From the NCBI GenBank assembly GCA_028280815.1, contig JANQLC010000037.1, positions 1 to 62,612 on the forward strand: 62,612 nt of DNA. The letters run 5' to 3'. Positions 45,065 through 60,076 of this stretch are shown here, one piece after another. The stretch is from Flavobacteriales bacterium (GTDB taxonomy: Bacteria; Bacteroidota; Bacteroidia; Flavobacteriales; JANQLC01). Position numbers and translations under genes: made by a program. The notes under the pieces were generated by a model. That model made no database searches. It had not been told where the DNA came from and saw only the letters and a program-made list of their open reading frames with translations. How positions within the stretch are numbered: position 1 is the first letter of the stretch; each line of letters opens with the position of its first letter.

Positions 45065-45858
45065 AAGTGCTGATAACCGGTGCCGACGGCCAGCTGGGAA
45101 GGAGTTTCCGTCAGATCAGCCCGGGGTTTGGCCGATTTGATTTTTTCTTTGCGAGCCGCGGGGATTTAGATCTGAGCAACTGGCGCAGCGTAGCCTCTTT
45201 TTTCAAAGAAAAATCCTTTGACTTCGCGATCAATTGCGCCGCCTACACAGCTGTGGATCGGGCTGAAACTGAAAGGGAAGCCGCCTATGTGGGCAATGTG
45301 GCCACCGTAAAACACCTGGTGAAAGCCTGTGAGAAGTATGCTGTGATCCCAATACACTACTCCACCGATTACGTATTTGATGGCAAAAAAGACCAACCCT
45401 ATCGCGAAACCGATATCCCCAACCCGATCAATTATTACGGTTACAGCAAATGGCTGGGTGAAGGGGTGATTCAGCAATCCGGAATCGACTTTTACCTGTT
45501 TCGAACTTCATGGCTCTACAGCGACTACGGCAAAAATTTTATTAAAACCCTCATCCAAAAGGTCAAAACTCAGGCGGAGCTACAGGTCGTAAACGACCAA
45601 AGGGGGTGCTTGACGGCGGCCAGCTGGTTGGCCGCACAAACGCTAAAGGCGCTGCAGTGGGGACTTCCCTTTGGGTTGTATCACCTCTGCAGCCGGAGGT
45701 CGCAGACCCGATATGAAATCGCACGGGAAATCGCAGCCGAAGTAAATCCCAGATGCCGTGTAAAACCCATTGAGACCAAGGACTTAAACCCAGTGGCAAA
45801 ACGCCCCGGATACAGTGTATTGGATACGGCGAAGTACGATGCCTCTTTGCGCGACTAA
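45043..45858 (+). CDS. rfbD: dTDP-4-dehydrorhamnose reductase, short at the C-terminus
   Basis: 271 aa from ATG 45043 (a GTG at 45067 would avoid the overlap with rfbC). It reduces dTDP-4-keto-L-rhamnose to dTDP-L-rhamnose with NAD(P)H. Short-chain dehydrogenase features: LITGADGQLGRSF (nucleotide-binding Gly-rich loop), NCAAYTAVDRAE, HYSTDYVFDG, and the active-site YYGYSKWLGE. The C-terminal RPGYSVLDTAKYDASLRD stops where homologues (285-300 aa) continue with a final helix containing Pro-x-Trp. The stop at 45858 is about 100 bp before repeat array B, so the end may have been lost when the array expanded. Activity uncertain. Confidence 0.88.
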   Translation: MGKRGALKVLITGADGQLGRSFRQISPGFGRFDFFFASRGDLDLSNWRSVASFFKEKSFDFAINCAAYTAVDRAETEREAAYVGNVATVKHLVKACEKYAVIPIHYSTDYVFDGKKDQPYRETDIPNPINYYGYSKWLGEGVIQQSGIDFYLFRTSWLYSDYGKNFIKTLIQKVKTQAELQVVNDQRGCLTAASWLAAQTLKALQWGLPFGLYHLCSRRSQTRYEIAREIAAEVNPRCRVKPIETKDLNPVAKRPGYSVLDTAKYDASLRD

Positions 45859-46349
45859 CCTTCCAGTCGATGATGTGGTCCCGCTGATTGGGCAGAGCTA
45901 AATCCTCAGCCCATTCGAGTAATCGATTGCATACCGAGCGGTGGCTGTTGTTTGATCTCCCGACTCTTTTGATGACTTGAAAGGGAAGTATTTGTTTTTT
46001 ATTCCTGTGGCTCGGTTTGGAAGGGCGAATTATTTTTTGGTTTTTTACCTCAATCGCTGATCCGACATGCGGTCTTTGGTAAGAGATGCCCATCTAACTG
46101 GGTTGACGCTGTGATTTTTGTCGCTTATTCTAATCCGGAGTAGTCTGAAAAGACGATCTTATTTTTTGTCCTGTGCGCGTCGGTTTGAAAGCGCGGACTT
46201 GTTTTTTGGTGTTTGTCTTTTCGTCACAGTTTAAAAAGTGGGCCTATTTTTCTCGTTCTCATTTGAGGGTCTGAAAAACGGGTCGTGATTCTTTGTGTTT
46301 GTCTCTATGCGTGCGACCCTGGGTTTTCTGTCGCCTATTTATTCTGTGG

Positions 46350-46364
46350 TCAGCTGCGCTGACT
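46350..46364 (+). repeat. Hairpin element GTCAGC-TGC-GCTGAC with T-rich tail
   Basis: Perfect 6-bp stem, 3-base loop, followed by TTTTGTT. Same element as at 47392, 58120, 58517 and 58742. Terminator-like in shape, although the stem is short. Confidence 0.65.
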
Positions 46365-46619
46365 TTTGTTGGTTAGTCGAACGAGGTCGCGTCTGAGAAT
46401 GGGAACGGCTTGTTTTTTGATTTTTACCACATGGCGGTTGCAGCCTTACAGTGCATTGGGTGGATGGATACAGGCGTAGTGGGTCGATCTGGAAGGCGAG
46501 GGGTATTTTTTGGTTTCGTCTCTGAAGGAGACTGTTTAAAAGGGGCTATTTTTTGTTTTGATCCTGTTGACGGTTTAAAGAGGGACTTGGCTTTTGTCCT
46601 TTTGGAGCGTTTGAGCAGT

Positions 46620-46975
46620 CGGGTTGGGTTGCTGTTGGTTGGATTGGTGGTTCGCCGGTGAGCTTGTCGTGTGTTACACTGGTTTTCTGTCTCGCTTTTC
46701 TACTGTGGACTTGTCTTTTGCGGGTTGCTCGTCACTATTGTATTGGCTTGGCGTTAGCTCAGTTGGTTTGGTTGAGCTGGTTGGTTGCTTTGCATGGCAT
46801 GGGTTGGGTTCGTGGTGATTGGTTTGTTTGGTGCAGTTGCCTTGCTGGTCTGCTGGGTTGATTGGCTCATTGGGTTGGATTGAGTGGCTTGGATTGGCTG
46901 GGTTGCTCTGTCGCTGGTGTGCTGTGGCGTGGGTTGTTGTCGGGTTGATTGGATTGCGCTGATGCATTGCTAACT
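46620..46975 (+). repeat. GT-rich tract inside repeat array B
   Basis: The plus strand is built of GGTTGG, TTGGATTGG and GGTTGGTTG motifs and resembles the tracts at 9.4-9.6 kb and from 61.44 kb. It interrupts the 38-48 bp family B units. The plus-strand ORFs (for example 46658-46861) are Leu/Val/Trp-rich chance frames. Confidence 0.75.
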
Positions 46976-47391
46976 TATCGCTCTGTTCTCTGTGCTGCCT
47001 GAATCGGTTTGAAAAAGGGGCTTACTCTTTTGCTTTTGAGCTTTTGTGGACGATTGAGAATTCAATCTTACTCTTTTTGTCCTGTTGGGTAACGTTTGAA
47101 AAGCACAACTTTTTCTTGTATCCAATCTCTTTGCGACGGTTTGGAAAAGGGCGTTTATTCTTTTGCGCTCAGCTCCCTTTGGGTGCTCCAGCCGCAAAGG
47201 TCCAATCCAGCGTGTCATATAGCTTTGCTGTGACAGGTTGAAAGCGCAGCTTTGCTCTTTTGATTTTAATGTATTCTGGGCTTTGGTGTGAGCTGAGTTG
47301 CAAGGGGTCTGGTGTATTATGGGCTTTCGACGGCTTTATTTTTGGCCTCTTATGGCGCCTGGAAAATCCTGCTTTCATCTTTGTTCCTGTG

Positions 47392-47406
47392 GTCAGCCTC
47401 GCTGAC
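47392..47406 (+). repeat. Hairpin element GTCAGC-CTC-GCTGAC with T-rich tail
   Basis: Second copy of the family B hairpin; the stem is identical to that at 46350 and two of three loop bases differ. It is followed by TTTTGTTGGTTAGTCGAACG, as in the first copy. Confidence 0.65.
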
Positions 47407-47574
47407 TTTTGTTGGTTAGTCGAACGTAAAACCAATCTCATTTTGCTGTGCTTATCCCAATGGCGACAGCCTGAGCGGGTGGGCTTTTTGGTGTTCGTCC
47501 CTTTGTGGTGATTTGAAAATTGCGGTGTTTTTGCTCTCAATCCGAGTGTTAGAGCTTAAGATGAGATAGCAATT

Positions 47575-47722
47575 GCTCTGCGCCCCGAGCAGGCTCAGGA
47601 TCCAACCGCCGACGATGCCCCAGCACGACATTCCGCAGTATGCCGAAACCACCGCCGCGCATAACTAGGCCGGCGAGCCATCCGGCGATTCCTCCGATTA
47701 ACAGCGTCCAAATGAATTCCGT
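47575..47722 (-). pseudogene. GlsB/YeaQ/YmgE-like (transglycosylase-associated) membrane protein, broken
   Basis: Minus strand, too short for most ORF finders. One frame reads EFIWTLLIGGIAGWLAGLVM then RGGGFGILRNVVLG; one base later the next frame continues GIVGGWILSLLGAQ. This is the Gly-rich small membrane protein family (GxIAGWLAGxxMRGxGFG...NxxxGIVG). The shift looks like one extra G in GGGG near 47,621. The codon at the expected Met (47722-47720) is ACG, so the start also seems lost. After SLLGAQ the frame runs into repeat array B, which has replaced the natural end. It lies about 90 bp downstream of hsp20 on the same strand; both families are often stress-induced. Confidence 0.65.
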
Positions 47723-47762
47723 ATTGTATAGGTTTTTGTGATTTAAACGGCTAATATAAACA

Positions 47763-47787
47763 AAAAGGCGGGAACCTGCCGCCTTTT
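47763..47787. terminator. Bidirectional rho-independent terminator after hsp20
   Basis: AAAAGGCGG (47763-47771), a 7-base loop and CCGCCTTTT (47779-47787): a perfect 9-bp stem whose A/T ends act as T-runs in both directions. It lies 26 bp past the hsp20 stop. Confidence 0.75.
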
Positions 47788-47812
47788 CATCGGGTTATTT
47801 AAATCACGTGGG

Positions 47813-48247
47813 TCAACTCACCGTTATCACTTTGGGCTTGTCGTCCTGAATCACCTTCTTTTTCGGTAGGGAGACCGTTAAAATGCCATCCCTATAGGAA
47901 GCCTTAACCGAATCGGGATCAACGCCCTGTTCAGGCAGCGAAAAGCTGCGCTTAAACGAGGTGGATCGAAATTCCCTGCAGGTGTAATCTGCTCCTTTGG
48001 CTTCCGTGTGCTTTTCGTTTTCCAACTCGGCACCGATGGTCAATACATTGTCCGCTACCGCTACGTTAAAATCCTCCTTCTTCAAGCCGGGTGCGGCTAC
48101 TTCTATCTGGTACACATCCGCTTTCTCGCGTATGTTCACAGGCGGTACGTCCAAGCCTTTGCGAAAGCCCCTGGGATTGAACCCGAAATCGTCGTCAAAA
48201 TACCCGAAGTCGTCCAGAAATCTGAAAGGTTTTCTACTGATTAACAT
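47813..48247 (-). CDS. Small heat-shock protein Hsp20 (alpha-crystallin family)
   Basis: 144 aa. ATP-independent holdase chaperone that binds unfolding proteins. Alpha-crystallin domain from about residue 38 (PPVNIREKADVYQIEVAAPG, then LKKEDFNVAVADNVLTIGAE), with the conserved FKRSFSLPEQGVDPDSVKAS, and the GILTVSLPKK segment near the end. The Phe- and Asp-rich N-terminal arm (FLDDFGYFDDDFGFN) is typical of Bacteroidota members. It has its own terminator; divergent from plsC, with an operator-like inverted repeat between them. Confidence 0.95.
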   Translation of the reverse strand: MLISRKPFRFLDDFGYFDDDFGFNPRGFRKGLDVPPVNIREKADVYQIEVAAPGLKKEDFNVAVADNVLTIGAELENEKHTEAKGADYTCREFRSTSFKRSFSLPEQGVDPDSVKASYRDGILTVSLPKKKVIQDDKPKVITVS

Positions 48248-48353
48248 CGCTCTATTTTTAGGTTATACAACAGTTTGCAATTAGGCTGCTGCAATTGCTG
48301 CGCCATCGAGAAATAGAGGCCGAAAGGCGACAAAGTGTCCGATTTTTGTTTAA

Positions 48354-48373
48354 TAGTCAAAATATAATGACTA
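48354..48373. promoter_or_regulatory. Operator-like inverted repeat between hsp20 and plsC
   Basis: TAGTCA (48354-48359), 8 AT bases, TGACTA (48368-48373). Perfect 6-bp arms, dyad centre 44 bp from the plsC start region and about 117 bp from hsp20. It is not a CIRCE element. Candidate binding site for a dimeric regulator; no assignment possible. Confidence 0.4.
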
Positions 48374-48405
48374 AATGTCGCTCGATTCTGAGCTTCAAAT
48401 TCCTT

Positions 48406-48412
48406 TACTTTG
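48406..48412 (+). promoter_or_regulatory. -7 promoter element of the acyltransferase gene
   Basis: TACTTTG, a one-base-shorter form of TAnnTTTG, ends 4 bp before the ATG at 48417, so the message would be leaderless or nearly so. Confidence 0.45.
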
Positions 48413-48416
48413 CGAT

Positions 48417-49175
48417 ATGAAGATCGTTTACAAGCTCTTTGTCACCGTCTGGAAACTGTGGTGTTACCTGGTCACAGCTGGGTCGACCATACTGTTGTCT
48501 CCCGTTTTATTCCTTTCGCTCGCCATGGATCGCTACGGCTGGTTTTACAAATTTGCCCGGCTTTGGGCAAGGCTCATCTGCTGTGGTTCGGGTTTTCGTA
48601 TCGAGCGAACGGATGAAAATGTCATCAGCGGGGCGAGCCATATGGTCGTATGCAACCACGGCTCCCTGATGGACATCCCGATCATCATGCTTTTGGTCGA
48701 GCGACCGCTCGTCTTCGTGGGCAAGAGCGAATTGGCTAAAATCCCGATTTTCGGATTCCTGTACAAGAAGGCCAGCATTTTGGTCGATCGCAGCAGTTTG
48801 AGAAGCCGTAGGCAAGTCTATGAGCAAGTGGGTGACAAGGTCAAACGAGGCCGGAGCATTTTTATGGCTCCAGAGGGTGGCAGACCCGATCGCGAAGTGA
48901 AGTTGGCCCGTTTCAAAGACGGTGCCTTTACCCTAGCCATCAAGCATCGGCTTCCCGTCCTGCCCATCACCATTGCCAATGCCAAGCAAAGGTTTCCGCC
49001 TATTTTTTGTGGGGGCGCCCCTGGGGTGATTTACGTGTACGTACATCCAGCCGTCGAAACCCAGGGCTACGACTTGAAAACGCGTGCCGAGTTGCGAGAT
49101 CAAACCCAAAAAATCATCGAACGACAGCTCGATGTGTTTTGCAAAACCCTATCCCGCAAAGCCTTTCTCCGGTGA
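48417..49175 (+). CDS. plsC: 1-acyl-sn-glycerol-3-phosphate acyltransferase
   Basis: About 252 aa from ATG 48417 (MKIVYKLFVTVWKLWCYLVT, an N-terminal membrane helix). It acylates lysophosphatidic acid to phosphatidic acid in phospholipid synthesis. Acyltransferase block I is VVCNHGSLMDIPIIM, where the usual HxxxxD reads H-G-S-L-M-D; block II region FGFLYKKASILVDR; block III MAPEGGRPDR (usual FPEGTR reads APEGGR); block IV LPVLPITIANA. The Gly for Thr in block III is a mild departure from the consensus. Complete length. Monocistronic. Confidence 0.9.
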   Translation: MKIVYKLFVTVWKLWCYLVTAGSTILLSPVLFLSLAMDRYGWFYKFARLWARLICCGSGFRIERTDENVISGASHMVVCNHGSLMDIPIIMLLVERPLVFVGKSELAKIPIFGFLYKKASILVDRSSLRSRRQVYEQVGDKVKRGRSIFMAPEGGRPDREVKLARFKDGAFTLAIKHRLPVLPITIANAKQRFPPIFCGGAPGVIYVYVHPAVETQGYDLKTRAELRDQTQKIIERQLDVFCKTLSRKAFLR

Positions 49176-49528
49176 GCAATCCGCATAATTTCGTAGTTTT
49201 GCAAGCCACTCGCTCAATAGACTACCCGATGAGATTGGCGCAAAAAAAACTTGTGTAAGGGTTAAAAAATCGGCGTTGACACAGGTTGGGTCTGGGCGAA
49301 AGACAGGGGTGAGACAAAGCGCCAGAATTTCGGAATATCCAAGGGGGCATGTACGTCTGAGTCATCAAATGTTATATACGTCGAAGCCTTGGGATTTGAG
49401 AGGATGGGATTTAAAATAGTAAAAGGTGAGGGTATCCAAAAGCCACAGGCGAAAGAAGAGTCGCTTTGGTGAGCGGTGCTTGTTTCCAAACTCGGGATTC
49501 GTCTTTTGGATCGTAGATTGACAGCGCG
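49176..49528. other. 350-bp region with a promoter-like element but no gene
   Basis: TAGTTTTG at 49194-49201 fits the -7 consensus, and 28 bp later an ATG (49229) opens only a nine-codon frame. The remaining bases up to the U32 gene show no protein-like frame. It may be a short RNA, a leader, or the promoter of a lost gene. The U32 gene itself uses GTG 49529. Confidence 0.4.
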
Positions 49529-50773
49529 GTGAGAGCTGGGGGAAAAATAGAGCTCATGGCGCCTGCGGGGAATTTTGAATCCCTGCAAGCCGCCATTGAC
49601 AATGGTGCTGATTCGGTGTATTTCGGTGTGGCCCAGCTCAATATGCGCGCCCGTGCCGCCATCAACTTCACCGTGGATGACTTGCCGGAAATCGCTGCGC
49701 GCTGCGAGTCTAAAGGGATTCGCAGCTACCTGACGCTCAACACCATCATTTACGACCACGATTTGTCCCTGGTCCAAGCGCTGTTGAAAAAAGCCAAAGC
49801 AGCGGGTGTTACGGCCGTTATTGCCATGGATCAAGCGGTGATTGCAGCGGCTCGGCAATTGGGTTTGGCGGTTCACATCTCCACGCAGTTGAATGTGACC
49901 AATATTGAAACCCTTCGCTTTTATGCGCACTTTGCCGATACGATGGTCTTGAGCCGGGAGTTGAGTTTGTCCCAGGTGAGGAAAATCGCCGATCGAGTAG
50001 AAAGAGATCGAATCACCGGCCCGGGTGGCGCGCTGGTCCGAATTGAGATTTTCGGCCACGGTGCCCTGTGCATGGCGGTTTCCGGTAAGTGCTACCTGAG
50101 TCTGCACGCTTACAACGCCTCAGCCAACCGCGGTGCTTGCAAGCAAAACTGCAGAAAAAAATATAGGGTAATCGATCGGGAAACCGGCTTTGAGATCGAA
50201 TTGGACAACGATTACATGATGTCGCCCAAGGATTTGTGCACCATTGATTTTTTGGATGAGATTCAAGCGGCTGGCATAAGCATCCTAAAGGTAGAAGGCC
50301 GGGGGCGCGCGCCGGAATACGTAGCAGAGACTACGCGTTGCTACCGAGAGGCCCTCGACAGCCTCTGTGATGGCTCCTATTCCAAGGCGCGTATAGCGGG
50401 TTGGATTCAGCGCTTGCAGGCGGTTTACAACCGCGGGTTCTGGTCTGGGTACTACCTGGGTCAAAAACTCGGCGAATGGTCGCCGGGAAGCGGCTCACAG
50501 GCTCGACAAAAAAAAGTCTATCTCGGCAAAGGCCGACACTATTACCCCGAAGCGGGGATCGGCGAATTTTCAATCGATGCTTACGATGTCAAAGTCGGGG
50601 ATAAGATACTGATCACGGGCCCCACTACTGGCGCCAAAGAAACCCGAGTGAAGTCCATCATGATCGACGATGTAAAAGCCGGCTCAGCCCAAAAAGGGGA
50701 TATCTGTACATTGCCGGTCGATTTCAAGATACGCCCTTCGGATAAGTTGTACAAACTGGTGTCCATCCGATGA
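49529..50773 (+). CDS. U32-family protein (RlhA/TrhP-like, RNA hydroxylation type)
   Basis: 414 aa with a GTG start. N-terminal TIM-barrel-like part with IELMAPAGNFESLQAAIDNG and ADSVYFGVAQLNMRAR; family Cys motif in GHGALCMAVSGKCYLSLHAY plus NRGACKQNC, giving four cysteines that in YegQ/RlhA/TrhP-type proteins are thought to hold an Fe-S cluster. DLCTIDFLDEIQAAGISILK is the usual barrel end; a C-terminal beta domain follows (about 330-414). Named peptidase U32, but characterised relatives hydroxylate tRNA or 23S rRNA using prephenate-derived chemistry. The stop overlaps the ferredoxin start (ATGA). Confidence 0.9.
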   Translation: MRAGGKIELMAPAGNFESLQAAIDNGADSVYFGVAQLNMRARAAINFTVDDLPEIAARCESKGIRSYLTLNTIIYDHDLSLVQALLKKAKAAGVTAVIAMDQAVIAAARQLGLAVHISTQLNVTNIETLRFYAHFADTMVLSRELSLSQVRKIADRVERDRITGPGGALVRIEIFGHGALCMAVSGKCYLSLHAYNASANRGACKQNCRKKYRVIDRETGFEIELDNDYMMSPKDLCTIDFLDEIQAAGISILKVEGRGRAPEYVAETTRCYREALDSLCDGSYSKARIAGWIQRLQAVYNRGFWSGYYLGQKLGEWSPGSGSQARQKKVYLGKGRHYYPEAGIGEFSIDAYDVKVGDKILITGPTTGAKETRVKSIMIDDVKAGSAQKGDICTLPVDFKIRPSDKLYKLVSIR

Positions 50774-51000
50774 TCGTCGTCACGCTGCAACGCGATAAAT
50801 GCATCGGTTGTAACTACTGCGCTGAGCTAGCCCCCGCGGCATTTCGCATGTCGAGAAGAGATGGTAAGTCGGTACTGCTCCGATCGGTGCGCAAAAAGGG
50901 TTTTTACACCTGGAAATCCACCGATGACGCGAGCTGTCAAAGCCTGGAAAAGGCGGCCGATTCCTGCCCTGTGAGAATCATCCGCGTAAAGCGGGTGTAA
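50770..51000 (+). CDS. Small ferredoxin, translationally coupled to the U32 gene
   Basis: 76 aa. A single cluster of the 4Fe-4S or 3Fe-4S type: CIGCNYCAELAPAAFRMS supplies the N-terminal Cys residues and ADSCPVRIIRV the distal Cys-Pro. The second position of the usual C..C..C motif is present (C-I-G-C-N-Y-C). Single-cluster ferredoxins of this size act as one-electron carriers. The ATG lies within the U32 stop (4-nt overlap), so the two proteins are probably made in matched amounts; it is a good candidate electron donor for the U32 protein's Fe-S centre, though that is inference. Confidence 0.88.
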   Translation: MIVVTLQRDKCIGCNYCAELAPAAFRMSRRDGKSVLLRSVRKKGFYTWKSTDDASCQSLEKAADSCPVRIIRVKRV

Positions 51001-51022
51001 AACACTTGTGGGCTAAAAGTCG

Positions 51023-51030
51023 TACATTTG
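51023..51030 (+). promoter_or_regulatory. -7 promoter element of ricT-gldH-PBP1A
   Basis: TACATTTG fits TAnnTTTG and lies 18 bp before the ricT ATG at 51048. Confidence 0.5.
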
Positions 51031-51047
51031 GCGCAGAAAGGAGAGCG

Positions 51048-52166
51048 ATGGGATGCGGCACATGCCGCCCAGGCGGGAAGCCTGCTGGATGTGAGAACAG
51101 GGGCTACTGCAGCACAGGGGGGTGTAGAAAAATGGAGGTCTTTGACTGGTTGGACAATATGAAATCCCCAAGCCGGGCGGGGCAATCGGATGTCGTAGAA
51201 GTACGGTTTAAAAACGGGCGCAAGGGATTTTATAAAAACGCTAAGGGGGGGGCGCTGTGTGTGGGCGAAGCGGTTGTCGTAGCGGGGGATCCCGGCTGTG
51301 ATGTCGGCCAGGTGTCGCTTACGGGGGAGCTGGTTCGAATCCAAATGCGAAAGAAAGGAGTGTCTCTCGGTGATTCAGGCATCCGAAAAATCTATCGAAG
51401 AGCTGCGGAAAGGGATTTGGAAATCTATGATCGCGCCCGGGCGCGGGAACGGGAAACCATGCTCAAGAGCAGGGTGATAGCGAGCGAGCTCGGATTGGAG
51501 ATGAAAATTTCCGATGTGGAATACCAAGGCGACGGCACCAAGGCCACTTTTTACTACACAGCGGCAGGCCGGGTGGACTTCCGGGCGTTGATCAAAGAGC
51601 TGGTCGCGCGTTTTGGCGTCCGAGTAGAGATGAGGCAAGTCGGCTACCGCCAGGAGGCGGCGCGTTTGGGCGGCCTGGGCTCCTGCGGCCGCGAATTGTG
51701 CTGCAGCACTTGGCTCGGCGATTTTCGATCCGTTACAACAGCCGCGGCGCTTTATCAACAGCTGTCGATCAATCCGCAAAAGCTGGCCGGCCAGTGTGGT
51801 AAGTTGAAGTGCTGCTTAAATTACGAATTGGACGCTTATCTCGATGTGCTCAAAAAACTGCCGGACACCAATGTCGTGCTGCAGACGCAAAAGGGGAATG
51901 CCATCATTCAAAAATTGGATGTCTTTCGAGAACTGTTTTGGTATGCTTATGAAGACGAACCGCTCAACTGGGTAAAGCTCACCGCTGCTGCGGTGAATGC
52001 AATTATATCCCGCAATGAAAAGGGTAAAAAAACGGTCTCCTTGGAGGAATTTGCTGTGGATGAAACAGCTGAGATCAAAGCGATTCAAAATGCGGTTGGC
52101 TTAGACGAACTCGCCCCACCCTTTAAGAGGAAGGACAGGCGCCCAAGGGGTCGGACCCACCGCTGA
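51048..52166 (+). CDS. ricT: PSP1-domain protein RicT/YaaT
   Basis: About 372 aa from ATG 51048 (MGCGTCRPGGKPAGC), the usual Cys-rich start in Bacteroidota; the frame from 51006 includes the promoter. PSP1 core (about 50-270): VEVRFKNGRKGFYKNAKGG, ERETMLKSRVIASELGLEMK, DFRALIKELVARFGVRVEMR, and the Cys motif GGLGSCGRELCCSTWLGDF then AGQCGKLKCCLNYEL, which coordinates Fe-S clusters in Bacillus YaaT with YlbF and YmcA. The Bacillus complex affects RNase Y and development; in Bacteroidota the role is unclear. The order ricT-gldH-PBP1A recurs in the phylum. Confidence 0.9.
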   Translation: MGCGTCRPGGKPAGCENRGYCSTGGCRKMEVFDWLDNMKSPSRAGQSDVVEVRFKNGRKGFYKNAKGGALCVGEAVVVAGDPGCDVGQVSLTGELVRIQMRKKGVSLGDSGIRKIYRRAAERDLEIYDRARARERETMLKSRVIASELGLEMKISDVEYQGDGTKATFYYTAAGRVDFRALIKELVARFGVRVEMRQVGYRQEAARLGGLGSCGRELCCSTWLGDFRSVTTAAALYQQLSINPQKLAGQCGKLKCCLNYELDAYLDVLKKLPDTNVVLQTQKGNAIIQKLDVFRELFWYAYEDEPLNWVKLTAAAVNAIISRNEKGKKTVSLEEFAVDETAEIKAIQNAVGLDELAPPFKRKDRRPRGRTHR

Positions 52167-52185
52167 AATAAGTCCAATTCCAGAA

Positions 52186-52656
52186 ATGCTAAGAGCGGAT
52201 AAACGCATCCTCTTCTACTTGTTGGTAAGCGGCTTTTTCTCATGCGGTAAAGCGCTGGAGTCAGCCGCGGACAGGCGTTTTACCACAGCTTGGTACAAAG
52301 GGGATACAGTGGATTTCACATTTGAAAACAGGGATACAACCCAGGCGAAAGATCTGTATTTGGTCGTGCGCAACGACGACGCATACCCCTTTCGCAACCT
52401 ATACCTCTTCGTCACTTTGCACACGCCAAGCGGTGGGATTTTAAGCGATACATTGGAATACTTGATGGCCGATATCCGAGGCAACTGGTTGGGCACGGGG
52501 ATCGGCGCGGAGAAAGAGAACATGCTCGCCTATCGGTTGAACCGAGTTTTTGGTGAAACCGGTACCTATCACTTGCGGATCACACAAGGCATGCGGTGCG
52601 ATAGTTTACGCGGGATTACCAGCCTGGGTTACCTGTTGGAGGCTTCAAAAAGGTGA
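52186..52656 (+). CDS. gldH: Gliding-motility lipoprotein GldH
   Basis: 156 aa. Lipoprotein signal ILFYLLVSGFFSCGK with the lipobox Cys near residue 20. GldH-family features: FTTAWYKGDTVDFTFENRDT, the NLYLFVTLHTPSGGILSDTL stretch, IRGNWLGTGIGAEKENMLAY, and GTYHLRITQGMRCDSLRGI. In Flavobacterium GldH is needed for gliding and type IX secretion, but it is also found in non-gliding Bacteroidota. It overlaps the PBP1A start by 4 bp (GTGA), so the two are coupled. No other gld gene is here. Confidence 0.9.
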   Translation: MLRADKRILFYLLVSGFFSCGKALESAADRRFTTAWYKGDTVDFTFENRDTTQAKDLYLVVRNDDAYPFRNLYLFVTLHTPSGGILSDTLEYLMADIRGNWLGTGIGAEKENMLAYRLNRVFGETGTYHLRITQGMRCDSLRGITSLGYLLEASKR

Positions 52657-54908
52657 AGAGGACCCGATCCCGACAAAGGCTGCGATCAAATCGGAATCGA
52701 AGTCACAGGCCTTATGCGATTGGGTTTTGGGTTGTTTACTTCCTAGGCCTGGGCGGCGTCGCGCTCATCTTTTATTTGGGCGCCACGGGTGTACTGGGTC
52801 AGATTCCCAGTTTTGAGCAGATCGAAAACCCCAAGAGCAACCTAGCTAGCGAGTTGTACAGCAGTGATGGCGTCTTGTTGGGAAAGTACTACTATCAGAA
52901 TCGTTCAGCAGTTGGCTTTGATCAACTCTCACCCCAGCTCGTCAATGCTTTGATCGCTACGGAAGACAAGCGTTTTTACCAGCATGCCGGCATCGACTTT
53001 ATAGGTACCCTGCGCGCCATCCTCTTTCTCGGTACGCATGGCGGAGGCAGTACCATCACACAGCAATTGGCCAAAAACCTGTACACCGGGCCACCCGCGC
53101 ACAACAAATTGGAGCGCTTACGCGAGAAGGTTATCGAATGGGTTACCGCCGTAAAACTCGAAAAATACTACACCAAACGAGAGATCATCGCCATGTATTT
53201 CAATATCTATGATTTCTTGTACCAAGCGGTAGGCATTAAATCGGCCGCTCGCATCTACTTCAACACCACGCCCGACAGCCTGAAGACGGAGGAAGCTGCT
53301 GTGCTGGCCGGCATGGCGAAGAATCCCTATTTATACAATCCGAAAAAGTTCCCCGAAAAGGCTTTGGCGCGGAGAAATATCGTATTGAAGCAGATGGAAA
53401 AAAACGCTTACCTCACAGCCGCGCAATACGACTCGCTCAAGGCCACACCGCTACAGCTGCGGTCTGACGAAGTCGTGACCCAGCACAAAGCGGGCATCGC
53501 ACCTTACTTCAGGGCGTATATTCGCAAGCGCGTCAGCAAAATTCTACAGGGAATCAGCAAGCCCAATGGGGAGAGATACAGTTTGTATCGCGATGGTTTG
53601 CGCATCTACACCACCTTGGACTCGCGTATGCAAATGCATGCAGAACGAGCTGTGGCCGAGCACCTAGCGGAACTGCAAGCCGAGTTTGATCAAAGTCAGA
53701 AAGACAATGAAACCGCTCCCTTTTACGGGCTTACCGCTGCGGCGATCCAAGGCATTATGAGGCGCGCTGTGCAGCGTTCTGCACGCTATAAGGCGATGAA
53801 AGACAGCGGTGCGACAGACTTGGAAATCAAACGCGCTTTTGAGACACCGACTCAGATGAAGATGTTCAGCTGGCAGGGTGAAATCGATACCGTGATGACA
53901 CCTATGGACAGCATTCGTTACTACAAATCCTTCCTACAAGCCGGTTTGCTCTCCATCGATCCACACGATGGTTTTATCAAAGCCTGGGTCGGGGGAATCG
54001 ACTTCGATTACTTTCAATTCGACCACGTTAAAACAGCTGCCAGGCAAACCGGATCAGCATTCAAACCCTTTGTCTATGCGACTGCCATCGATCAATTGAA
54101 ATACTCGCCTTGCTATCGATTGCCGAATACAAAAATCACCATAGGGGATTGGACCCCTAGAAATACCGAAGATCGATATGGCGGCATGCTCAATCTGAAA
54201 GAAGCGCTGGCCAGATCGGTAAACGTGGTCACAGCCCGTTTGATCGACGAAACGGGTTTTAAAGCCGTCCGGCGGCTGGCTTACAGCATGGGCATTGTGC
54301 ACGACATTCCAAAAGACTACACCATCGCTTTGGGTACGGCGGACCTGTCCCTGTATGAGATGACCGAGGCTTTTACCACTTTTGCCAACAAGGGGATCCA
54401 CAATCGGCCTTTGGCGATATTGCGGATTGAAGATAAGAATGGATATAACATTTATGAGGCAAAACCCCAAACTCGAGAAGTGATGAGTGAAGAAACCGCT
54501 TATGTCATGATCAATTTATTGGAGGGGGTCACCCAATACGGCACGGGTGTTCGCCTGCGCCGCACATACAAATTGGATAACCCGATTGCGGGGAAGACCG
54601 GGACGACGCAAAACCAGTCCGATGGTTGGTTCATAGGGCTCACCCCTGATTTGGTCACCGGCCTTTGGGTCGGCAATGAAGACCGAGCCGCCCATTTTAA
54701 GAGCCTGCGCTTGGGACAGGGAGCCAACACGGCGCTACCCATATGGGCGTTGTATATGAAAGCCCTCTACGCCGATCCAAAGCTCGACCTAAGCCGAGGT
54801 GACTTTGACAAACCCGAAGGCGAACTGAGCATTGAACTCAATTGTGAGCGGTACGATTCGGAAAAGCTGCCTGCAGCTGGCCGGAGTAAAATAAGCGAAG
54901 ACTTCTGA
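52653..54908 (+). CDS. Class A penicillin-binding protein 1A
   Basis: 751 aa with a GTG start inside the gldH stop. Bifunctional peptidoglycan synthase. Cytoplasmic basic tail, one membrane helix (about 24-50), then a GT51 glycosyltransferase domain with ATEDKRFYQHAGIDFIGTLR (catalytic Glu) and GGGSTITQQLAKNLY; a linker (about 250-440); and a transpeptidase domain with the active-site Ser in ARQTGSAFKPFVYA, the SxN-type ALARSVNVVTARL, and KTGTTQNQSDGWFIG. All catalytic motifs are intact. Last gene of the ricT-gldH operon. Confidence 0.95.
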   Translation: MKRTRSRQRLRSNRNRSHRPYAIGFWVVYFLGLGGVALIFYLGATGVLGQIPSFEQIENPKSNLASELYSSDGVLLGKYYYQNRSAVGFDQLSPQLVNALIATEDKRFYQHAGIDFIGTLRAILFLGTHGGGSTITQQLAKNLYTGPPAHNKLERLREKVIEWVTAVKLEKYYTKREIIAMYFNIYDFLYQAVGIKSAARIYFNTTPDSLKTEEAAVLAGMAKNPYLYNPKKFPEKALARRNIVLKQMEKNAYLTAAQYDSLKATPLQLRSDEVVTQHKAGIAPYFRAYIRKRVSKILQGISKPNGERYSLYRDGLRIYTTLDSRMQMHAERAVAEHLAELQAEFDQSQKDNETAPFYGLTAAAIQGIMRRAVQRSARYKAMKDSGATDLEIKRAFETPTQMKMFSWQGEIDTVMTPMDSIRYYKSFLQAGLLSIDPHDGFIKAWVGGIDFDYFQFDHVKTAARQTGSAFKPFVYATAIDQLKYSPCYRLPNTKITIGDWTPRNTEDRYGGMLNLKEALARSVNVVTARLIDETGFKAVRRLAYSMGIVHDIPKDYTIALGTADLSLYEMTEAFTTFANKGIHNRPLAILRIEDKNGYNIYEAKPQTREVMSEETAYVMINLLEGVTQYGTGVRLRRTYKLDNPIAGKTGTTQNQSDGWFIGLTPDLVTGLWVGNEDRAAHFKSLRLGQGANTALPIWALYMKALYADPKLDLSRGDFDKPEGELSIELNCERYDSEKLPAAGRSKISEDF

Positions 54909-54978
54909 ATACACCTTTCGCACCTGGCTAAGCGCAAGAACTCGATCACCCACCCGATCCCTGTGCTCTGCGGCGGCG

Positions 54979-55686
54979 TTATGTCGATTGTTCGCACGCC
55001 AATAGGGGTTCTAAGCGATAACGGCGCATCAACTGCGCTACCGTCAGCACATCTCGTTCGCAATATTCGACAATGCGCCTCAGATTTTTTTCTCGGTAAT
55101 ACACCGCTGCTACCTCGCTGCCATCGATGTCCGATTTGGGTGTGGGAATGTCAAAAATCGCTGCGAGCAATGCCAGGGATGTAAAGCTCTTTCGATCGCC
55201 GAACCGCCACAAGACCAGGGTGTCCAAATGCGCGATCTCCCAGGGTTTTTTCCCCGCTGTATCCAATTGGGGTGGCAGTTCTATGCCGTTGATCAACAAC
55301 CTTCTCGATAAATAGGGGAAATCAAACTCCTGACCGTTATGTGCACACAACACCGGAAGTGATGCTGCGTTTTGAGATAGGAGCACAGCGAAGCGCTCGA
55401 GCAAATCTCGTTCATCGTCACCGAAAAACGACTTTACCCGAAATTTCTCCTCAGCCGTAATCAACCCACAACTCACACAGATTATTTTGCCGAACTCGGC
55501 ATAGATTCCCGCTCGACTCTCATAGCATGGGCCGGGAGAAATTTTGGCTTGCGCATCCTGTAACTGTGCCGCTTTGCGCGTCCAGAGGGCCTTTTTTGTG
55601 GCGCTGAGCGCTTCGTAGTGGGAGGCTTGGGGCACCGTCTCTATATCGAGGAACAGGATTTTTTGGAGGCTGATGTCCTTGCGCAT
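54979..55686 (-). CDS. 3'-5' exonuclease (RNase H-like, PolB-type)
   Basis: 235 aa. DEDD-type exonuclease fold: ILFLDIETVPQASHYEALSA (motif I with Asp and Glu), PVLCAHNGQEFDFPYLSRRL (motif II), then HLDTLVLWRFGDRKSFTSLA and IVEYCERDVLTVAQLMRRY (motif III with Asp). Members resemble the proofreading domain of family B DNA polymerases but act alone; the substrate is not known. The ATG overlaps the stop of the upstream serine hydrolase gene by one base (TGATG), so they are coupled. Convergent with PBP1A. Confidence 0.88.
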   Translation of the reverse strand: MRKDISLQKILFLDIETVPQASHYEALSATKKALWTRKAAQLQDAQAKISPGPCYESRAGIYAEFGKIICVSCGLITAEEKFRVKSFFGDDERDLLERFAVLLSQNAASLPVLCAHNGQEFDFPYLSRRLLINGIELPPQLDTAGKKPWEIAHLDTLVLWRFGDRKSFTSLALLAAIFDIPTPKSDIDGSEVAAVYYREKNLRRIVEYCERDVLTVAQLMRRYRLEPLLACEQST

Positions 55687-56840
55687 CAGAACTGGGATTG
55701 GAGTGTTTGCAAAGCCCCGTCCACGTACGGGTACACCTCATTTTTGGGCTGGTTTTTTAACCGGGGGTCACAGGGGTAAAAACCGAGACGCACGACTACC
55801 ATATCGCATGTCGGGATGGCGGTTACGTATTGCCCACCGTGTCCGATCATCGCATAGAACGGGGGGTTATTTTGGTAGTCCATCCACAAGCCGTAACCGT
55901 ATTGGGGCGAATCCGCGGCAGCCGGATGGGTCATCTGCTTTACAAAGGCGCTATCCACCAATTGCGCACCGTCCCAATTGCCATTTTGCAAGAGCAGTTG
56001 ACCGAATTTCGCGAGGTTGCGCGCATGGGTATTCACGCAGCAAAAGGCCTTTTCCACGCCACCCGCCCGATCCAAAGACCACAGGCCATCCCCGTTCATG
56101 CCCAAGGGCTTCCAAAAATTTTCACTCAGATAAGCGGACAGCGTCTGTCCACTAGCTTTTCGGATCACCATAGCCAACAATTGGGTGGCACAGCTCACAT
56201 AGTCAAACCGCTGCCCTGGTTTTTCCACCACCTTTAATCTCAGCACCAAAGAATCCAATCCGCTGTCGTAGTAGGCTTTCGTCATGGCGGTAAACGGGGC
56301 GTAATAACTCTCCTTCCATTTCAACCCAGTCCGCATATTCGACAAGTCGCCCACGGTCAATTCCGAAGCCAAGCCCCTGCGGAATGGGGGGAGGAAATCA
56401 CCCACCTTTTGGTCTAGACCCTGGATGCAACCCGATTCGATAGCCTTTCCGAGCAGGAGCGTTACCAGGGTCTTGGCCATGGAAAAGGAGTTGCACAGAT
56501 GCTTATCGTCGTAGCCACCCCAATATTCCTCATACTCGATTTTACCCCCTTTGATGATTAGATAGGCCACGGTCTGATAGCGCGCTAAGTATTTCCTGAA
56601 ATCACCTGGCAATTCATATCGGTTGTAGTGCTCTGACTGCGCCCAGGGCTGCGGCCTGCCAGCGAGGATGACGCGGTTGCTGAAAAATTTGTAGTCGTCG
56701 AGTTCGGCCGTCCCATAGCCCCGAAGGTAGGTTTGCCTAAGGGCATCAATCAGATAACCGCGGCCGGTCGCATAAGCCAGGAGGACGGCTGACAGGATGA
56801 GAATCAAAACCGCATAGCCGATCCATTTGACGGATTCCAA
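55686..56840 (-). CDS. Beta-lactamase-family serine hydrolase (membrane-anchored)
   Basis: 384 aa. N-terminal membrane helix (VKWIGYAVLILILSAVLLAY), then a class C beta-lactamase/esterase fold: nucleophile SMAK in CNSFSMAKTLVTLLLGKAIE, the second motif in RFDYVSCATQLLAMVI (YxS in place of YxN), and HGGQYVTAIP (HxG third motif). Family members include D-amino-acid peptidases and esterases; this size and fold do not imply drug resistance. Faces the periplasm. Co-transcribed with the exonuclease that overlaps its stop. Confidence 0.88.
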   Translation of the reverse strand: MESVKWIGYAVLILILSAVLLAYATGRGYLIDALRQTYLRGYGTAELDDYKFFSNRVILAGRPQPWAQSEHYNRYELPGDFRKYLARYQTVAYLIIKGGKIEYEEYWGGYDDKHLCNSFSMAKTLVTLLLGKAIESGCIQGLDQKVGDFLPPFRRGLASELTVGDLSNMRTGLKWKESYYAPFTAMTKAYYDSGLDSLVLRLKVVEKPGQRFDYVSCATQLLAMVIRKASGQTLSAYLSENFWKPLGMNGDGLWSLDRAGGVEKAFCCVNTHARNLAKFGQLLLQNGNWDGAQLVDSAFVKQMTHPAAADSPQYGYGLWMDYQNNPPFYAMIGHGGQYVTAIPTCDMVVVRLGFYPCDPRLKNQPKNEVYPYVDGALQTLQSQF

Positions 56841-57068
56841 AACAGCTGAGAATTTCGCCTAAAAGTACAAAATCCTTTTAAAGAACCGCGATTTTATCCC
56901 TTATCGCGCATAGCTGTTTGTCGAGTGGTGCACGACAGCTGTGAATCGGCGTAAAAATAAGGGATGTGTATGCCTATATCAGATTTGGTGATATACAAAC
57001 CCGATTGCATTCGATTTATTTTACTACTTTTATCGAGAAAATGTTTAACCCTTACAATTTGTGTTGAG

Positions 57069-57680
57069 ATGGCTTTTGAAATAGATAATTTGCCCTATGC
57101 TTACGATGCGCTAGAGCCCTATATCGACGAGCAGACCATGCGGTTGCACCACGACAAGCACTACGCGGGTTACACCAACAAACTCAACAGCGCCATCGAA
57201 GGGACGGCCTTGGCCGGTCAATCCATAGTGGATATATTCAGCGACTTGGATATGGATCAGGCTGCTGTGCGCAACAACGGTGGTGGTTATTATAACCACA
57301 GCCTGTTTTGGAAGGTGATGGGGCCGGGGAAAGGCGGTGAACCGACGGGGGCATTGAGGGGTGCTATCGATAGGGCTTTTGGTTCGTTTCGCGGATTCAG
57401 AGGAGAATTTTCCCAAGCGGCTGCTACGCGATTCGGATCGGGTTGGGCATGGCTTTGCGTGCGAAACGGTGGTGCCCTCTGCATTTGCAGCACACCAAAC
57501 CAGGATAACCCTTTGATGCCGGGCGGTTGCGAGGGCATGCCCATCCTGGGCTTAGACGTTTGGGAACACTCGTATTATCTAAAATACCAAAACCGCCGTC
57601 TGGAGTATATAGAGAATTTCTTTAACGTGATCAACTGGGATTGCGTATCCCAACTATACGAGGAGAATAAGCAGGCTTAG
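57069..57680 (+). CDS. Superoxide dismutase (Fe/Mn type)
   Basis: 203 aa from ATG 57069 ([20 protein letters not shown]); the longer frame from 56964 lacks homologue-like sequence. It converts superoxide to O2 and H2O2. Metal ligands in [32 protein letters not shown], and [19 protein letters not shown] (Asp and His). The residues around the second His (NHSLFWK) fit Fe/Mn cambialistic enzymes; the metal cannot be assigned from sequence. Monocistronic. Repeat-type DNA follows directly. Confidence 0.95.
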
Positions 57681-57959
57681 GTCGCGCAGCAGGTCTTTGC
57701 TAAGTACGGGTGCATCGAGCGTTTTTTTAACGCGGTTTTTGGCTGGGTGTGCGAGCGATTTGGAGCCCCGTGTTTCGGCTCTGTCGGCTGCTTTTTGTCG
57801 TAGGCTGATGCAGGCTTCGAATCCAAATTGTGGGGTGGTCGTGTCCTTATTTTTTAGCCCATCGATGGGGCGCTAACCGCAGTGGAGTAGGGTCGTTAAT
57901 CCCGTCGTGCCGCAGGAGCGGGCCTGGGGATCCACCCGAACAGAACCGAGGCTAAGAGA
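57681..57959. other. Intergenic region after SOD, before repeat array B
   Basis: A weak hairpin GCGTTTTTTTAACGC (about 57,719) could serve as the SOD terminator. A GTGTCCTTATTTTTTAGCCC stretch at about 57,850 already looks like a family B unit. No gene is supported. Confidence 0.45.
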
Positions 57960-58119
57960 TGGGTAACTGGGATTCGGAGCCCTTATTTTTTTGCGTTTGT
58001 CCCTGTGGTCGGGTCTCTCTGACTTTTGTCATCATATCGTTTACCCCTGCTGTGAATCACCTTAGAGGCCCGGCAGCTCTGGTTTGACGTTTAAAAAGGG
58101 GGGGTGTTTTTGTCTTGTG

Positions 58120-58134
58120 GTCAGCTGTGCTGAT
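58120..58134 (+). repeat. Hairpin element GTCAGC-TGT-GCTGAT
   Basis: Third copy. The last base of the stem gives a G-T wobble; TTTTATA follows. Confidence 0.6.
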
Positions 58135-58516
58135 TTTTATATATCCCAACTTGCGTAGGGGCAGGAGATCTGGTCTATTTTTTTATCCTTTGGGGGAGGG
58201 TTTGAAAGGTGCGGTCTTATCCTTTTGTGGTTGTCTCGCATGGGACGGTTTGAAAACGCGAACCCATTTTTTGGTTTTGCCCTTTTGCGGGTTTGAAGAG
58301 CTGGACTTATTCTTTTGCCTTCCTCTCTGTAGGGTTTTCTGAAAGCCTGGATCTGTTTTTTTGCTTCGTCCGTCTGTAGCACTTTAAGGTGGCTGGGGGA
58401 GACAGTTTGAAAGCCTGAAATTATTTTTCTTCCCGATTGACGGTGTTAAAAAGCAGTCCTTGTTTCTTGCTCTCGGTTGGTAATTTGGTAAGCCAGCCTT
58501 ATTTTTCGCCCCTTTG

Positions 58517-58531
58517 ATCAGCTGTGCTGAC
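58517..58531 (+). repeat. Hairpin element ATCAGC-TGT-GCTGAC
   Basis: Fourth copy. The first base of the stem is unpaired; TTTTGTTACAGTCCCAAC follows, similar to the sequence after the 58120 copy. Confidence 0.6.
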
Positions 58532-58741
58532 TTTTGTTACAGTCCCAACTTGGGGGGCGTCTAAAAGGCGACTCTTATGTATTCGTCTGGCGTGTTGTTT
58601 TAAAAAAGGACTTATTTTATTGGAACGCCTGCCCTTATTTTTTTGGTGTTTGTCTGTGCATGTCGTTTTAAAATAGGGATTTATCTTCTCGTTTTTGGCC
58701 TTTTTGGTGCTTTGAAAGAAAGACTTGTTTTTGTCCCTGTG

Positions 58742-58756
58742 ATCAGCTGTGCTGAC
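58742..58756 (+). repeat. Hairpin element ATCAGC-TGT-GCTGAC
   Basis: Fifth copy, identical to the fourth over 15 bp; TTTTATACACTCG follows. Confidence 0.6.
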
Positions 58757-59058
58757 TTTTATACACTCGTCCTATGGGTCAATCCAAAAGTCAACTTTGT
58801 TTTTGTCCCCGTTTTTGCGGTCTGAAAATGAGGGATTTTTTCTGTTTGATCTGTGGGGCGCGTTTGAGCCCCAGCCTTGTGTATCCGTTCTCGCGGTAGG
58901 TCTCAAGCGCTAAAACTCCCGATCGATTGGCGTTTTGAGGTGAGAAACAAGCGCTTTTTGCCATGGACTGGGTTCCATTGACTGCCTCATAACAGAGCTA
59001 TGCACCCTATGGCTTGGGATTTGAGGGGTACAAGCCCGCTCACCTCGAATGATCGGTG

Positions 59059-59107: not shown

Positions 59108-60076
59108 ATGAAGCGCATCCTCACCGGCATACAAGCCACAGGTATCCCCCACTTGGGCAATATTTTGGGGGCGATCAAGCCCGCCTTGCGGCTCGCTGCG
59201 GAGCCCGATACCGAATGCTTTTTCTTCATCGCAGACCTGCACGCTCTGACCACCGTAAGGGATGCGGCTACCCTCAAACAAAACACCTACAACACAGCTG
59301 TGGCCTGGCTGGCCAATGGCTTAGATGTGGATAAAGTGCTGTTTTACCGGCAGTCCGATGTGCCACAGGTTGCCGAGCTCAGCTGGTATTTGAACTGCCT
59401 GGCACCCTATCCGATGCTCGCCAATGCGCATGCCTTTAAGGATAAGTCCGGCCGCCTGGCCGACGTGAACGCCGGCCTCTTCGACTACCCGGTATTGATG
59501 GCTGCGGATATATTGCTGTACGATGCCCAATGGGTGCCGATGGGAAAAGACCAGACACAACACCTCGAGATGACACGCGACATCGCCCAGGCTTTTAACA
59601 ACTGCTATGGTCGTACCTTTGTGCTGCCAGAGTTGCGTATGGCGGAACGCCTCATGCGCATACCGGGAACGGACGGCAAAAAGATGAGCAAGTCCTATGG
59701 GAATTATATCGACATCTTTCTGCCCGAGGCGCAGCTGCGCAAGCAGATCATGGGAATCGTAACCGATAGCCGTCCGCTCGAAGCGCCCAAAGAACCGGAT
59801 ACGGTTTTCACCCTGTACGAGCTGCTCGCCAGTCCTGAGCAGACGGCGGCCATGCGCCAGAATTACCGGGCGGGAAACTACGGCTATGGCCAGGCTAAGC
59901 AAGCCCTCTTTGAATTAATACTCGAAAGATTTAAATCGGAACGCAAAAGATTTGACTATTATTGCAAGCGGCCCGACGAGGTGGAGTCCCTATTGGCCCA
60001 AGGTGCTGCCAAGGTGCGTGCAAGGGCCGATAAAAAGCTGAAAGCGGTGCGAAAAAAAATGGGGTTTACTCGGTAA
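59108..60076 (+). CDS. trpS: Tryptophanyl-tRNA synthetase
   Basis: 322 aa, normal length. Class I synthetase charging tRNA-Trp. HIGH-type motif in TGIQATGIPHLGNILGAIKP (here PHLGN), FFFIADLHALTT, ADVNAGLFDYPVLMAADILL, YDAQWVPMGKDQTQHLEM, and the KMSKS loop GTDGKKMSKSYGNYIDIF. Basic C-terminal tail. The start sits directly after a terminator and -7 element, so it is a single-gene transcript. Confidence 0.97.
   Translation: MKRILTGIQATGIPHLGNILGAIKPALRLAAEPDTECFFFIADLHALTTVRDAATLKQNTYNTAVAWLANGLDVDKVLFYRQSDVPQVAELSWYLNCLAPYPMLANAHAFKDKSGRLADVNAGLFDYPVLMAADILLYDAQWVPMGKDQTQHLEMTRDIAQAFNNCYGRTFVLPELRMAERLMRIPGTDGKKMSKSYGNYIDIFLPEAQLRKQIMGIVTDSRPLEAPKEPDTVFTLYELLASPEQTAAMRQNYRAGNYGYGQAKQALFELILERFKSERKRFDYYCKRPDEVESLLAQGAAKVRARADKKLKAVRKKMGFTR

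Follow-up and report, generated by a model that had tools for sequence, protein, structure and literature searches.

Two gaps of the locus are filled with a worn 42-bp repeat

We analyzed a 62,612-nt stretch of DNA (the window) from an uncultured flavobacterium with a 1.6-Mb draft genome of 92% completeness. Two large intergenic gaps in the window hold arrays of an imperfect repeat, the B unit (Table 1). One gap is convergent, lying between an RmlD-like gene and an HSP20 gene, and the other is co-directional, lying between a superoxide dismutase gene and a gene for a W/Y-type class I tRNA synthetase. The B unit is about 42 bp long, reads GTTTGAAAAGCGGGnCTTATTTTTTTG...TTTTGTCCCTGTGGGTCG, and is made up of the core GTTTGAAAA, a loose stretch rich in G, a tract of CTTATTTTTT and the tail TTTTGTCCCTGTGGGTCG. 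The original prediction, that imperfect units fill both gaps and that the gap between hemB and hemF carries them reversed, was borne out by profile matches on the plus strand in the first two gaps and on the minus strand in the third. The hemB-hemF array runs in the same direction as both flanking genes, whose identities were upheld by Pfam. An extra match of 8.0 bits at 27974-28002, inside a called gene, is probably due to chance. With a minimum score of 30, Tandem Repeats Finder reported none of the arrays in the window, and in these gaps found only a 5-bp period at 46869-46897.

Table 1. Repeat arrays, individual modules and flanking genes in the window.
Feature	Positions	Strand	Basis	Remarks
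B-unit array	33744..34105	-	nhmmer profile	4 matches of at least 8 bits; hemB-hemF gap
B-unit array	45970..47265	+	nhmmer profile	13 matches of at least 8 bits; convergent gap
B-unit array	58088..58845	+	nhmmer profile	10 matches of at least 8 bits; co-directional gap
B unit, top-scoring	58241..58283	+	nhmmer profile	23.2 bits
B unit, second-ranked	47000..47041	+	nhmmer profile	23.1 bits
Module H (hairpin), TGTGGTCAGCTGCGCTGACTTTT	46345..46367	+	pattern search	3 substitutions allowed
Module H, other copies	start at 47388, 58004 (worn), 58116, 58513, 58738		pattern search
Module E	46055..46130	+		about 75 nt; 9/9 sample copies on array strand
Module F, partial copy	46444..46495	+		8/8 sample copies on array strand
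GGTTGG-rich stretch	46600..46960	+	limits by eye	G/T-rich strand of array gap
RmlD-like gene	45043..45858	+	Pfam
HSP20 gene	47813..48247	-	Pfam
Superoxide dismutase gene	56964..57680	+	Pfam
Class I tRNA synthetase gene (W/Y type)	59108..60076	+	Pfam

The unit recurs between genes and exceeds composition controls

We built a profile HMM from 17 units of the window, with no iteration, and searched five other contigs. The profile matched 65 B units of at least 10 bits in 139 noncoding gaps (95,210 bp) and none at that threshold in the 273,222 bp of called coding sequence of the same contigs. When each gap was shuffled with its dinucleotides kept (n = 20), the mean fell to 0.15 matches with a maximum of 1. 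The repeat therefore survived the comparison with composition-matched shuffles by which it might have been dismissed as a composition effect. Similarly, the first 433 kb gave 147 matches of at least 10 bits versus 1 in order-3 Markov sequence. Extrapolation from these 433 kb yields about 540 B units per genome, which is likely an overestimate because the six underlying contigs, like the five used for the profile test, all came from a list of contigs with a BLAST match to a window array. Our complete sample covers 738,885 bp, 46% of the genome, and was chosen in part for arrays. It contains 328 B units of at least 10 bits, none of them in called genes; at 8 bits or more, 11 of 429 were in genes. 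The scan of this sample revealed many intergenic arrays with few units in genes, the pattern that had been named as support for the repeat.

Array gaps are mosaics of a single polarity

The array gaps are mosaics, in which B units occur alongside GGTTGG-rich stretches, the hairpin module H and three or more longer modules. Successive B units are separated by a short linker or by a longer module (H, C, E, F or a GGTTGG stretch), on the array strand throughout. All 52 gaps holding at least two B units had them on one strand, with no mixing. Module H was on the array strand in 18/18 copies near arrays, the other 3 of its 21 matches being far from arrays; the same was true of 12/12 copies of module C and 5/5 of the GGTTGG type. 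Array gaps are enriched in GGTTGG-type 8-mers, and the GGTTGG-rich stretch in Table 1 is presumably what the original prediction called family A. A further candidate, module D, was rejected as a recurring module after its profile matched its source copy alone.

We also compared 76 array gaps with one another by BLAST. Nearly all matches (946/948) were plus/plus, and 157 of these covered at least 100 columns, as in a segment of 315 columns at 71% shared between contigs C37 and C14. An origin of the arrays from base composition alone, or from simple slippage in G/T-rich spacers, could appeal to the strong G/T skew of the spacer strand and to how worn the B units are. We give this explanation almost no credence, since its composition part is refuted by the shuffles above, and the single polarity of the modules and between-contig matches of such length count against the whole of it.

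Spacing is regular and divergence is star-like

The distance between successive B units was 36-47 bp in 84 of 257 intervals, compared with 40.1 ± 5.6 and a maximum of 60 when placement was randomized 500 times under a 28-bp minimum. The original proposal that the units are copied sequence is borne out by the excess over shuffles. Among 60 aligned high-scoring units, column identity averaged 64%, in line with the predicted high divergence, unlike that of CRISPR or a recent satellite. The similarity score was 8.90 for adjacent units (n = 105), 9.06 for units of the same gap (n = 921) and 9.26 for units of different gaps (n = 2572 sampled). Because adjacent units are no closer than those far apart, a young minisatellite is ruled out, and simple slippage, one of the roles originally suggested, is not supported by the same comparison. 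Divergence among the units is star-like; local duplication does occur to some extent, as in an internal match of 88 columns at 95% in one gap.

Wear is uneven along the unit. In paralogous segments aligned from seeds outside the core, TRAAA (positions 14-18) was 81% identical versus 52% at positions 21-26. Core A at positions 16-18 was 88% identical versus 55% for ordinary linker A. An alternative explanation, in line with the nucleoid-protein binding originally suggested, is that the arrays consist of protein-binding sites, for example for a nucleoid-structuring or boundary protein, with putative contacts at the TTTGAAAA core and the T-tract that recur every ~42 bp and lie between genes, away from promoters. 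Such sites would account for the conserved core, for spacing far above random, for array orientations independent of gene direction (see below), and for B units that behave nearly as independent draws from one motif, with no local similarity and few linked columns. Four column pairs did carry more mutual information than the maximum reached in 20 column shuffles, so independence of the columns is approximate only. However, A's of linker runs unlike the B unit were also 79% kept, and core conservation may therefore partly reflect base context. In addition, intervals of 36-47 bp span a full helical turn, so the sites are not all on one face of the DNA, and no candidate protein was found. We consider binding sites possible, though improbable. 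It is doubtful that the units amount to a genome-wide set of several hundred putative binding sites, kept as a motif rather than as copies, by which one lineage marks or packages the spaces without promoters that separate its transcription units; if they do, the set would be comparable, in a bacterium, to boundary elements or satellite arrays, each array having its own polarity.

Arrays avoid divergent gaps, and flanking genes do not set their orientation

B-unit matches occurred in 30/56 convergent, 30/148 co-directional and 3/56 divergent gaps, where assignment of some gap classes may be wrong because our purpose-made codon-usage gene caller missed at least one gene, for a reverse transcriptase. 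The first six contigs alone gave 18/36, 12/80 and 1/35, respectively. A sense orientation to the upstream gene had been hinted at by 27/34 arrays, a count that is uninformative because such orientation is automatic in convergent gaps. Counts from co-directional gaps (8:4, 12:14 and finally 13 sense to 17 antisense arrays) led us to reject it, and we conclude that the flanking genes do not set array orientation.

The preference for convergent over divergent gaps would also be expected of transcribed 3' elements, such as terminators, mRNA-stability elements or Rho-loading arrays. Module H, a 6-bp stem followed by T's on the array strand, fits this explanation. So does the antisense strand of the B unit, which is C/A-rich and weakly folded (mean -3.76); Rho-loading sites are C/A-rich. 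Nonetheless, we judge 3' elements unlikely. Besides the near balance of sense and antisense arrays, genes with a terminator no more than 150 nt from the stop were equally rare before sense arrays (4/23), before antisense arrays (2/20) and without arrays (7/91). The B unit folded no better than its shuffles (mean -6.62 versus -6.64). Module H had 91% of its cells paired, which did not exceed shuffled controls either, and its two pairs changed on both sides were equalled by shuffles.

The original suggestion of a structural RNA is not supported for the unit itself. No consensus structure or pairs were found in the B unit, a hairpin between its R-tract and Y-tract was rejected for want of covariation, and Rfam 15 gave no match above gathering score in the window and none at E <= 0.5 in 45859-47812. 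Among the longer modules, the alifold value was -1.14 for module E, versus -0.23 ± 0.47 for column shuffles, and 0.00 for module F.

Replication polarity of the arrays is weak at best. Array direction agreed with local TA skew in 22/33 arrays at first and later in 32/51 (p = 0.09), and with GC skew in 27/51, among arrays with enough context (those of 12 short stretches were left out). The expectation of a consistent orientation to replication was thus not upheld. Where TA skew exceeded 0.08 either way, 25/36 arrays followed the strand presumed to be leading (p = 0.03), as might a replication-oriented polar sequence of the FtsK-guiding or recombination hot-spot type, or a product of lagging-strand slippage. 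Against this, the complete set gave the weaker agreement above, and the arrays of contig C37 alternate as -,+,-,+,-,+ when single weak matches are left out. We therefore regard a replication-oriented sequence as very unlikely.

The arrays appear confined to one lineage

Among 245 further genomes from the order, nine had one match and none had more; a comparable array was absent from these searched genomes. The sets of 29 and 245 genomes that were searched contained no second strain and no member of the host's family. The Y1 transposase domain (PF01797, Y1_Tnp) had no match in the 92% complete host genome, while 5/14 control genomes were positive, and we rejected mobilization of the arrays by a RAYT. 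A reverse-transcriptase domain lies at C37:4673-5146, in a gap without B units. Two exact patterns had no match in viral contigs, a search that worn copies would escape. No description of such a repeat was found among the literature matches listed.

A proposed old repeat family spread by recombination

Taken together, we favor, at a probability of roughly one half, the explanation that the arrays are an old, lineage-specific, non-palindromic and polar family of intergenic repeats that spread by recombination and is mostly tolerated away from promoters. Segments of existing arrays may have been copied into further gaps and rearranged as arrays of the same orientation recombined with one another. 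Such exchange would keep the modules in one polarity and leave the units about equally distant genome-wide. Selection would mainly have purged copies from genes and promoter-bearing gaps, so that arrays would persist in convergent gaps and on 3' sides, tolerated rather than needed for the most part. Several observations speak against this explanation: the uneven wear of the unit, which plain decay does not predict, the four linked column pairs, the local duplication in one gap, and the lack of a mobilizing enzyme tied to the arrays. The arrays raise the question of what maintains the identity of the motif, selection for binding or genome-wide recombination.

A lean layout is expected for small bacterial genomes. 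This small genome retains long spacers (convergent gaps average 1061 bp with the codon-usage caller), many of them full of one-way, worn mosaics that Tandem Repeats Finder missed in the window.

Comparison with known repeat systems

Repeats of the CRISPR type are spaced with a similar period, but they are near-identical and separated by unique spacers, whereas the units here are much diverged, have recurring modules between them and occupy dozens of loci. By Pfam, nine of ten proteins around the window arrays matched families other than cas and one was unmatched. The likeness to intrinsic terminators is limited to module H with its stem and T's; the B unit has no stem beyond that of shuffles, and its arrays lie in both sense and antisense directions.

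Mycobacterial interspersed repetitive units (MIRUs) and other minisatellites are direct repeats of comparable unit length arrayed between genes, and our arrays resemble them in these respects. MIRUs are reported to insert at start codons with a coupled ORF (PMC12548453), whereas here divergent gaps seldom hold arrays and flanking genes do not set orientation. The tandem expansion that characterizes minisatellites and VNTRs is not seen, given the similarity scores of adjacent and distant units and the silence of Tandem Repeats Finder.

Repetitive extragenic palindromes (REPs) are reported to be 20-40 bp in length, mostly intergenic and mainly between convergent and co-directional genes, with a GTAG type tied to RAYT transposases (PMC3733652). 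Our arrays share with REPs and BIMEs the short unit, the many copies and the intergenic placement, including the gap classes favored. In contrast to those palindromes, the B unit does not fold beyond shuffles, with module H alone having a stem; the B units of one gap share one direction; and the Y1 transposase domain that would correspond to the RAYT of GTAG-class REPs was not found in the 92% complete host genome. The absence of local similarity, the preferred spacing and the polarity together set these arrays apart from REPs and minisatellites.

The repeat is real

We analysed 738,885 bp of non-overlapping sequence, including the window (contig C32), or 46% of a 92% complete draft genome (1,593,684 bases, 42 contigs). 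Six contigs, the first to be analysed, were read completely (433 kb: the window, C37, C10, C1, C14 and C29 up to base 40,000); apart from the window, they were chosen among those that the 58-kb window array matched by BLAST, and further stretches were selected for the presence of arrays. By one crude measure, coding cover was 0.78-0.86 on those six contigs; in relatives, 20 stretches gave 0.83-0.97, with a mean of 0.89. HemF of the window is 62-67% identical to the best 80 relatives listed, nearly all carrying flavobacterial labels.

A seed profile, an alignment of 17 window units without iteration, was applied to the five other contigs. In 139 noncoding gaps (95,210 bp) it gave 144, 98, 65, 44 and 19 matches at 6, 8, 10, 12 and 15 bits, against means of 3.5, 1.05, 0.15, 0.05 and 0 in gap-by-gap dinucleotide shuffles, while 273,222 bp of called coding sequence gave 12, 1, 0, 0 and 0. 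From the composition-preserving comparison at 10 bits, we conclude that the degenerate repeat originally noted is real and not a composition effect. The final model, iterated on the 433 kb, found 147 matches of at least 10 bits, and one in order-3 Markov sequence. A sequence-only covariance model of 60 units yielded at least 200 matches genome-wide at E <= 1 (150 of 1,875 candidates scored), and the matches listed span 27 of the 42 contigs.

Among 29 other genomes, every one related at the level of the same order only, seven had a single match at E <= 0.01, compared with 151 here; no more than 150 candidates were scored in any genome. A more stringently filtered search, scoring 26 candidates in each genome, covered 245 other genomes of the order: nine had a single match at E <= 0.001, and the present genome had 31.

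Unit anatomy and modules

Profile and alignment give the unit order TGTGGGTCG-GTTTGAAAAGCGGGn-CTTATTTTTTTG-TTTTTGTCC, the tail TTTTTGTCC being taken by eye and from enriched 8-mers. The commonest spacing between successive called units is 36-47 bp (84 of 257 intervals; 40.1 expected), and we infer that extra peaks near 80-92 and 120-132 bp reflect intervening units too worn for calling. Units are separated by short linkers or by longer modules (H, C, E, F or GGTTGG-rich; see table). Three of the 21 matches to the module H pattern are far from arrays; shuffled sequence yields two. Module E alone among the longer modules hints, weakly, at RNA structure: inspection by eye shows it to retain a short GGTAAGAGATGNGCATCT motif in which some copies carry paired changes. 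GGTTGG-type stretches also occur within array gaps of C14 and C37, and the C14 tandem is clearly a local duplication.

Arrays, modules and neighbouring features
Feature	Position	Strand	Remarks
Array	window 45970-47265	+	
Array	window 58088-58845	+	
Array	window 33744-34105	-	between hemB and hemF
Module H		unit strand, 18/18 copies near arrays	6-bp stem + T's
Module E	window 46055-46130	unit strand, 9/9	also C29, C37, C10, C14
Module F		unit strand, 8/8	
Module C		unit strand, 12/12	
GGTTGG-type stretches		unit strand, 5/5	
GGTTGG/GGATTGG-rich run	window 61460-62612	G/T-rich strand as in arrays	long; reaches contig end
GGTTGG-type tandem	C14:26820-27061 (L116:6820-7061)		three closely similar copies, ~75 bp each
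Hairpin	window 47763-47790		strong, -15.1 kcal/mol; A's and T's either side; adjoins HSP20 gene end, far side of array gap
Reverse-transcriptase protein	C37, L099:4043-5599	-	518 aa; overlooked by codon-based caller
Skew sign change	C10, ~15-35 kb		+ to -, four-fold-site TA and GC skew

No sign of RNA or of a known mobile element

A structural RNA had been suggested as one role, and this was not supported: the predicted folding of the unit is no stronger than that of shuffles, it has no consensus pairs, and Rfam gave no match in the window. No Y1 transposase domain was found in the 92% complete genome, and its single reverse-transcriptase domain lies away from units. By these tests, the unit is neither RNA nor a known mobile element. 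The C37 protein is, we presume, similar to phage-defence reverse transcriptases. Terminators like the window hairpin are rare (at -7 or below in 7 of 91 genes without arrays).

Polarity and placement

None of the 52 gaps with at least two matches of at least 10 bits mixes strands. With 76 array gaps oriented by the sense of their units, BLAST among them gave 948 matches, of which 946 were plus/plus; 57 of the 948 fell within a single gap and 157 spanned at least 100 columns. Across the 738,885 bp, called genes held 0 of 328 matches at 10 bits or more and 11 of 429 at 8 or more. Under gap classes resting on a codon-usage caller that missed at least one gene, matches occurred in 30/56 convergent, 30/148 co-directional and 3/56 divergent gaps of at least 100 bp (2.66, 1.53 and 0.32 per kb), and in 18/36, 12/80 and 1/35 in the first six contigs alone. 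Within co-directional gaps, 13 arrays run sense and 17 antisense. Array orientation agreed with four-fold-site TA skew in 32 of 51 (p = 0.09; 25 of 36 where that skew is clear, p = 0.03) and with GC skew in 27 of 51. A skew change from + to -, as on C10, is expected at a replication terminus.

Relatedness of units and core conservation

Neighbouring units were not closer to each other (similarity score 8.90) than units of different gaps (9.26). Unit columns are nearly independent, four pairs exceeding the largest value from 20 shuffles. Longer segments common to different gaps are 66-89% identical among the top between-gap matches listed; all shared-segment matches together hold 675 transitions and 581 transversions.

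The main rival reading, which stands, is that units are a set of DNA-binding sites. Alignments seeded outside the core (112 matches, 92 query units) showed 81% identity in TRAAA, 52% at positions 21-26, 74% in the T-tract and 71% in flanks. In a separate comparison, A's were kept at 88% in the core, 55% in ordinary linker and 77% in unit-like linker context. On these figures, the core may be under constraint. However, A's in linker runs unlike the unit are also 79% kept, which removes part of that case.

These results are in keeping with an old family of polar intergenic repeats. In such a family, like-oriented arrays would recombine with one another and might persist where promoters escape damage. 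The units differ from REPs in having no palindrome, and no Y1 transposase was found in the genome, but the placement of the units resembles that of REPs as described in PMC3733652.
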